Source of the DNA: Clostridia bacterium
GTDB lineage: Bacteria; Bacillota; DUOV01; Zhaonellaceae
Assembly (NCBI GenBank): GCA_012838615.1
Contig: DUOV01000173.1
Span: 1 to 46,186, forward strand
Reading direction: 5' to 3'
Length of the DNA: 46,186 nt
The notes beneath the pieces are model-generated. The model searched no databases. It worked only from the letters and a program-made list of their open reading frames with translations, and was not told the DNA's origin. A program made the translations under genes and the position numbers. Below are positions 2,539 through 3,671 of the stretch, piece after piece (position 1 is the first letter of the stretch; each line of letters starts with the position of its first letter).

Positions 2539-3450
2539 TTACCTAGTAATTATTACTTTTTGCTTTTTCCCATCCCACTCTACCTTGCAGCCTAATGATT
2601 CAGCTATAAATCTAAGTGGGACCATGGTTCTGCCATTTTGCAAAACAGGTGGTGCATCTAAAGATACTTTCTCGCCGTCTACTGTAGCCTCGTTTTTCCC
2701 TATTTGAAGTACTATCTTCATTGGGTTATCCTCCTTAATCTTCGGAATCTCGTTAGGCAAAACAAAAACTCCATACGCATTACGGTTCTGCTTGGCAAAA
2801 TCATATACTAACTCTTGTTTAGGTTTAACCCCTTGCTCCAGCAATAGTTGAACATAGCAAGCTGCCAAACCTGTAGCAAAAGGTGTTGCAAACGAGGTGC
2901 CCATTGGAGTCCACCAATTACCTTGAGAGTTTTTAATGTACGGGTTTAGTCCGAATATATCTTCACCCCTATTAGAATACGATGCAACTTTGTTTAGGTT
3001 GTGATTCCACGACCCTACCGCAAGTGCAAAATTAAACCTAGCAGGGTAATCAGGAATATCCTTTGCATTGTTTCCGGTTGCACAAAAAAGAGGATGTTCT
3101 TCTAGTTTTTCAAAATCCTTGGCTTGTAGATATATACCCCCTAATGAAATGTTAATTAGGTGTGGTTTGTTTGCATTTATCCAGTCGATGCATCTTTGTT
3201 TATCCGACCCCTGCCCTTTCCACTTCAGCATCATAATATTAGCATCGGGGGCGGTTACACGGGCAGATTTACAGACGTTCAGCCCGTGACTAACAGGCAA
3301 ATTGTGATTGTAAGGCATTATAACTTTATCCATTTCAAAGTTGTCAATTACAGCAATTGTAACGCCTTTTCCGGTATAACCACTATTGTGCCACGCTATA
3401 AGGTTGGTAATCTCTAGAACAGCTCTGTTTTTCTCAATCATATTTGTCAC
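2539..3450 (-). CDS. S8 (subtilisin-like) serine peptidase fused to a C-terminal copper amine oxidase-like domain
   Basis: Catalytic triad motifs VIDNF (D), SHGLNVC (H), GTSFATPFATG (S) and oxyanion CATGNN; C-terminus IGKNEATVDGEKVSLDAPPVLQNGRTMVPLRFIAESLGCKVEWD; no signal peptide evident. Confidence 0.85.
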   Translation of the reverse strand: MTNMIEKNRAVLEITNLIAWHNSGYTGKGVTIAVIDNFEMDKVIMPYNHNLPVSHGLNVCKSARVTAPDANIMMLKWKGQGSDKQRCIDWINANKPHLINISLGGIYLQAKDFEKLEEHPLFCATGNNAKDIPDYPARFNFALAVGSWNHNLNKVASYSNRGEDIFGLNPYIKNSQGNWWTPMGTSFATPFATGLAACYVQLLLEQGVKPKQELVYDFAKQNRNAYGVFVLPNEIPKIKEDNPMKIVLQIGKNEATVDGEKVSLDAPPVLQNGRTMVPLRFIAESLGCKVEWDGKKQKVIITR

Positions 3451-3671
3451 CCACTATATCTTATGCTAGGCATAAAAAATACGCCTATGTGGCGTTTATA
3501 CTTTACTTTTGCATTTTTGCTATTAGTAACCCCTCTTCTTCTCATCATCCATATAAACTTTTTGACCCTCAAAGATAAAAATTCTTCTTCCTTAGTTAAA
3601 TCCCTACCAACCGCTATTTCCTTCACCAATATTAAAATTCCTAAAAACTCTATAACAAAATATAAAAATTA

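Follow-up and report, generated by a model that had tools for sequence, protein, structure and literature searches.

An S8 peptidase gene with a putative internal start ahead of its single copper amine oxidase-like repeat, and its relatives in phage lysis regions

The window, meaning the whole stretch of 46,186 nucleotides of Clostridia bacterium contig DUOV01000173.1 that was analysed, carries on its minus strand a gene that joins an S8 peptidase to a single copper amine oxidase-like (CuAO) repeat, hereafter the window gene. Its neighbours are chromosomal: it lies between the gene of a secreted CuAO protein (1025-2347) and feoB-like transporter genes. The features considered here are the following.

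2539..3441, minus strand: S8 peptidase-CuAO repeat gene, long form of 300 aa, start ATG 3441
3447..3452, minus strand: modest Shine-Dalgarno (SD) sequence GGGTGA of the long-form ATG 3441, duplex −8.9 kcal/mol
2755..3441, minus strand: S8 catalytic domain, residues 1-229, from Pfam; the subtilisin fold matches
2719..2754, minus strand: linker, residues 230-241, holding the SD and the internal start; coil in the AlphaFold model
2730..2736, minus strand: internal SD AAGGAGG, duplex −11.1 kcal/mol
2719..2721, minus strand: internal start codon ATG (Met241), read directly
2539..2721, minus strand: proposed short product of 60 aa, one CuAO repeat (predicted)

As for the long form, its N-terminus is without a hydrophobic signal segment, and Pfam places Peptidase_S8 at residues 63-198 (E 1.2e-12) and Cu_amine_oxidN1 at residues 239-298; the family profile and the subtilisin fold both assign the protein to S8 (AlphaFold model with pLDDT 76 and pTM 0.70), and Peptidase_S8 is its only catalytic domain, not a peptidoglycan hydrolase. 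The candidate triad, assigned by motif, consists of Asp33, His52 and Ser183, with Asn124 as the oxyanion residue; in an alignment of 10 relatives Ser183 and Asn124 are invariant, and His52 nearly so. In several phage S8 members the catalytic Asp of subtilisins is replaced by Glu or Gly, with His and Ser retained (alignment A4 of S8 members, columns 45-55); the window protein has Asp33 at this position. Regarding the C-terminal 60 aa, by themselves they match PF07833 (E 1.2e-22), above the curated cut-off, over model positions 52-108 of 108 only; they correspond to one repeat, the second of two, and not to the full 108-position two-repeat domain.

At the junction the minus strand reads ...ATT AAG GAG GAT AAC CCA ATG AAG ATA GTA...: a spacer of 8 nt (2729-2722) separates AAGGAGG (2736-2730) from ATG (2721-2719), the frame is that of the peptidase, with the stop ending at 2539, and the short product would begin with MKIVLQIG. 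Direct reading confirms exactly what the original prediction had described, that is, AAGGAGG, 8 nt and ATG 2721 opening an in-frame ORF of 60 aa, with the long form encoding IKEDNPMK across the same DNA; its placement of the ATG at the junction of peptidase and CuAO-like domain agrees with the Pfam limits and with the AlphaFold linker, in which Met241 lies in coil just ahead of the first strand of the C-terminal domain (242-246). By Pfam and AlphaFold, the predicted short product is a whole domain, and its start falls outside any domain, as in two-product endolysins.

SD strength was expressed as duplex energy against a generic anti-SD, and the background set comprised 36 hand-listed coding sequences of the window, with 10,694 internal codons and 559 in-frame ATG, GTG or TTG codons, 215 of them ATG. 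Among these 215 internal ATGs only ATG 2721 reaches −11.1 kcal/mol or better; one TTG of the 36-gene set also attains this value. The internal start is stronger than the peptidase's own ATG 3441 (−8.9 kcal/mol) and is the best of the 11 internal starts in the window gene (−11.1 vs −6.5 kcal/mol for the runner-up). An in-frame internal SD and start are thus found between the domains, clearly over the gene background, as in endolysins of that type. Taken by itself, the gene gives a non-significant result (p = 0.18), with a junction start as good in 18% of synonymous shuffles that keep the protein, because Lys-Glu-Asp codons easily spell AAGGAGGAY. The site is therefore real and rare, but not significant singly; significance comes from the relatives.

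Near the window gene no phage genes were seen, and it has no holin neighbour; this copy lies outside a phage lysis module; that the window might be a prophage was rejected, as no phage genes were seen in it and one holin family is absent from the genome. The host assembly consists of 222 contigs, and two relatives were available for comparison; the gene is missing from two family members. The 3' end of tRNA-Thr (CATCAGCTCCA, 837-847) is repeated exactly at 2459-2469, 70 nt beyond the stop of the S8 gene, and both copies are accompanied by similar terminator-like hairpins (832-890 and 2454-2512 of the window; 59 nt, 71% identical); this repeat looks like an integration scar, the insert of which would be the secreted CuAO gene at 1025-2347.

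Close relatives were found neither in the bacterium's own family and class (3 genomes), nor when genome and viral contigs were scanned with patterns made from the single sequence, nor in phage records at 1e-5. The phylum sample yielded three relatives, all with the S8 plus CuAO layout, and L023 was added by a search of the order containing the genome of L019. A CuAO-repeat scan of viral contigs returned 80 loci, where one or two C-terminal CuAO repeats follow a domain of the S8, papain-like C1, trypsin-like or VanY/M15 type, and a scan with the S8 alignment added more S8 proteins, with one SLH domain or a different module at the C-terminus; the family is under-collected, as the scans depend on conserved motifs. 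A phage lysis module surrounds L017, L018, L019 and L145: in L017 and L018 a holin gene precedes the S8-CuAO gene and one for an M23 endopeptidase comes after it, and L019, an S8-amidase-CuAO fusion, is followed by BhlA and holin_LLH. In a Tepidibacter phage-plasmid, an S8-SLH gene is flanked by tail genes and by XhlA, a holin and M15. In the peptidase part, the S8-CuAO relatives are about 23-36% identical to the window protein, and by such sequence comparison the window gene groups with phage lysis-region proteases, though it is sited among chromosomal genes.

Some loci were set aside: MT837317, MT839366 and the Priestia S8 matches are large, mostly secreted-type subtilases of different layout; L043, considered as a free CuAO ORF, is a two-repeat protein of 124 aa among pilin-like genes and not a split partner; and L121, considered as a split S8/CuAO pair, is one ORF if TGA is read as Trp. 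This last S8-CuAO phage gene (L121:2953-3891) has three TGA codons, one of them the W of the conserved WI-I/S-G motif, and its phage or host likely uses recoded TGA, because the gene is open only with TGA as Trp. One in-frame TGA also interrupts the S8-CuAO gene of the prophage-like locus L018 (L018:1249-2241). A second protease class carries, by sequence, the same CuAO binding module, namely the papain-like phage proteins of L036, L040, L056, L057, L062 and L094, in which Peptidase_C1 is followed by one or two C-terminal CuAO repeats.

The internal SD is conserved in distant relatives. The junction reads GTGAGGATGAGAGT-ATG in L017, GGAGGTGA-5-GTG in L019, AAGGAGGT-10-ATG in L023, AAGGATGTGATAAT-GTG in L039, GGAGGT-7-ATG in L041 and GGGGTGAGAGC-GTG in the trypsin-like L035; among the genes with SLH or other modules it reads GGAGG-7-ATG in L114, GAGGAGGT-10-ATG in L117, GGAGG-11-ATG in L126, GAGGAGG-8-ATG in L131 and AAGGAG-9-ATG in L112. 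In L034 and L037 an ATG is present with a weak SD, in L116 an ATG stands without SD, and the junctions of L018, L121 and L145 have no usable start. The position equivalent to Met241 holds ATG or GTG in 7 of 11 S8 plus single-CuAO genes, and where it encodes Val the codon is always GTG; the linkers have little else in common. With the exceptions of L018, L116, L121 and L145, the start position is therefore conserved among relatives, as it is in endolysins of the two-product type. At L104-L111, where a VanY/M15 endopeptidase is joined to one half of a CuAO domain, the junction reads AAGGAGG-8-TTG in most copies, and GGAGG-5-TTG in two in which Lys-Glu is changed.

Two readings had been offered for this arrangement. 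A recent fusion of two adjacent genes is not supported, because distant phage and prophage proteins, with peptidase parts only about 23-36% identical, have the same fusion; on this comparison the S8-CuAO fusion is old, and a search for homologs with the S8 and CuAO parts as separate neighbouring ORFs found none. The other reading, one gene from which the fusion and a free accessory domain are both made, has good comparative support in the SD and start kept in distant relatives; loss of the internal SD among homologs, which the original prediction had named as a refuting outcome, is not what the comparison showed. Membership in a protease family of phage lysis regions, and the occurrence of the signal with SLH modules and at the S8/amidase boundary, go beyond the original prediction.

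The tests across the family treat genes as independent, and their P values are indicative, because deeper kinship remains after removal of near copies (L033, L038 and L132 were left out as close copies; L034 was left out of the final counts and kept in the shuffle); moreover, the first junctions had already been seen when the limits of the junction window and the cut-off of −10 were chosen, so that significance is somewhat inflated. So read, the internal start with the best SD is a junction start in 8 of 10 S8 plus single-CuAO genes (P 8e-6, with 1.6 expected), and the same is true of 4 of 7 genes with S8 and another terminal module (P 0.002, with 0.76 expected). Of the 35 starts at the junction, 13 are strong (−10 or better), compared with 7 of the 230 elsewhere (P = 1.7e-8). 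The junction starts of L032 and L037, the best of which fall within the S8 terminal motif, were not counted as real; of the two, only L032 had strong starts, and the conservative count, which removes L032 and sets its sites against the idea, gives P 1.1e-6. Combined synonymous shuffles give p = 1e-4 for S8 plus CuAO and 0.025 for S8 plus another module, several relatives being, like the window gene, non-significant singly; no excess occurs in S8 proteins with tandem CuAO (0.29) or in other enzymes, papain-type included (0.19). Four of the seven strong starts outside the junction belong to L048, L112 and L116, where they sit at the boundary between S8 and amidase. In these three fusions that boundary holds the strongest internal start (GTG in L048, ATG in L112, GTG in L116); therefore, catalytic modules may also be produced separately.

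Strong starts also differ with the number of repeats: a strong junction start is present in 9 of 18 single-repeat genes vs 0 of 7 tandem-CuAO genes (P 0.024, or 0.04 conservatively). The cellular CuAO domains compared here are tandem, and in the AlphaFold model of the neighbouring protein (1025-2347) both repeats are packed as one confident unit (pTM 0.83), similar to a portion of the copper amine oxidase of E. coli. SLH units, for their part, function in threes. The endolysin LysBT1, with one SLH, trimerises through that domain (PMC12285257), and for two-product endolysins stoichiometries of 1:3, 2:2 or 1:5 have been reported (PMC9430671).

Three other accounts of the junction were weighed. 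Charged linkers of Lys, Glu and Asp could give an SD-like sequence by chance, with a nearby Met completing the picture; the shuffle of the window gene and the singly non-significant relatives fit this account, but the combined shuffles do not, no excess is seen in the papain-type or the tandem genes, whose modules are similar, and the start codon keeps one fixed position at which Val is always GTG, all of which makes chance composition improbable. A somewhat better, still unlikely, alternative is that the module formerly had a gene of its own, located downstream, and that the linker of the fused gene still contains the SD and ATG of that gene, which no longer matter. The predicted products do start as genes do (MKIVLQIG), neighbouring lysis enzymes occur both separate and fused (M23 is separate at L017 and L018 and fused in L131), and starts are found at S8/amidase junctions too; against it, a neutral relic should decay, whereas the signal is kept across peptidases of such low identity and linkers otherwise different, it is absent with tandem CuAO, and an unfused S8/CuAO pair was not found.

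The remaining account accepts the dual start and places it in an ancestral phage, the gene being now stranded or domesticated, so that the host uses the long form alone or neither product. We hold this to be possible, if on the doubtful side: the chromosomal setting with no phage genes nearby, the two family members without the gene, the tRNA-Thr repeat 70 nt beyond its stop and the missing holin family all point this way, but the ORF, the triad motifs, the internal SD and its ATG have all stayed intact, unlike what decay would leave.

From the sequence comparisons, we consider it probable that the internal start of the window gene is used, and that this is a two-product gene which works like the two-polypeptide endolysins, with a protease in place of their enzyme; "works like" is preferred to "is" because Peptidase_S8 is its only catalytic domain. 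The comparisons show the signals in the sequence and how far they are conserved, the limits of the domains and the lysis-region setting of relatives; that initiation happens at the junction, that the modules assemble, what is cut and what role the gene has in the host we infer. The protein would be a protease of the lysis-region type, made of an S8 catalytic domain and one small surface-binding module, the single CuAO-like repeat; the first start would give the whole protein of 300 aa, and the internal SD and ATG the free module of 60 aa. By analogy, and as the simplest mechanism, free modules might then assemble with the full-length protein, a step that we put at somewhat less than even odds: they would pair with its own module, so that one catalytic domain would be carried by at least two binding modules, and the extra ones would compensate for an anchor of only one CuAO repeat where a tandem pair is usual (or of one SLH unit where three are). 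The substrate of the protease would be a protein layer or some other protein of the envelope; the choice of a protein layer, for example the S-layer, is a guess that draws on the class of enzyme and on the relatives with SLH.

In its broadest and most tentative form, which we think possible and would not call likely, the proposal is that phages of Bacillota and relatives encode lysis-region subtilisin-like proteases in which any of the modules, whether S8, amidase or a CuAO or SLH repeat, can have a start of its own, giving nested polypeptides; free one-repeat binding subunits would complete a multi-repeat surface anchor on the protease, which at lysis would open a protein layer (e.g., the S-layer), and the same anchor could be reached either by internal initiation or by tandem duplication. 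If true, the single-gene two-product design is not limited to endolysins that cut peptidoglycan and represents a general phage route to multivalent surface-binding lytic enzymes, proteases included; the start would be needed with a one-repeat anchor and dispensable with a tandem one, and binding of the free repeat to the full-length protein would be expected. CuAO-like repeats would then count among phage surface-binding domains, and protein layers among the targets of lysis.

In-frame two-product genes have been proven by experiment in endolysins (PMC9430671; PMC4777826; PMC7098653), and the architecture is predicted in about half of the endolysins from Gram-positive phages (PMC9430671). Like CTP1L, CD27L, CS74L, Lys170, LysIME-EF1 and LysP7951, the window gene is one gene with an in-frame internal SD and start between catalytic and binding domains, its predicted short product is the binding domain, and its relatives lie in phage lysis regions; unlike them, it has an S8 peptidase in place of a peptidoglycan hydrolase and a CuAO repeat (SLH in relatives) as its module, this copy is outside a prophage, and its two products are predicted from sequence. 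The S8-SLH relatives resemble the prophage endolysin LysBT1 (PMC12285257) in having a single C-terminal SLH unit as binding domain; LysBT1, however, has an amidase, and the terms "internal" and "start codon" are absent from that paper. The phage "protease" PHROG 3677 and the BFVD phage S8 proteins (ctWiL39 peptidase, ct0Wl9 SLH protein) share the S8 domain (E 2.2e-20), the fold and the phage origin, with no function or dual start described for them in the sources consulted. Cellular secreted tandem-CuAO proteins, such as that at 1025-2347 of the window, have the same repeat fold, but they carry two repeats, and no such junction SD and start is present in the G000 examples.

In a paper library with few subscription papers, no paper brings "copper amine oxidase" and "endolysin" together, and, within the same scope, the titles and abstracts searched included none on S8 peptidases of lysis cassettes. 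Two things appear to be new with respect to these systems: that internal starts go with single-repeat anchors, and that the two-product design extends to subtilisin-like proteases of lysis regions, to modules of the CuAO and SLH kinds and to the boundary between S8 and amidase.
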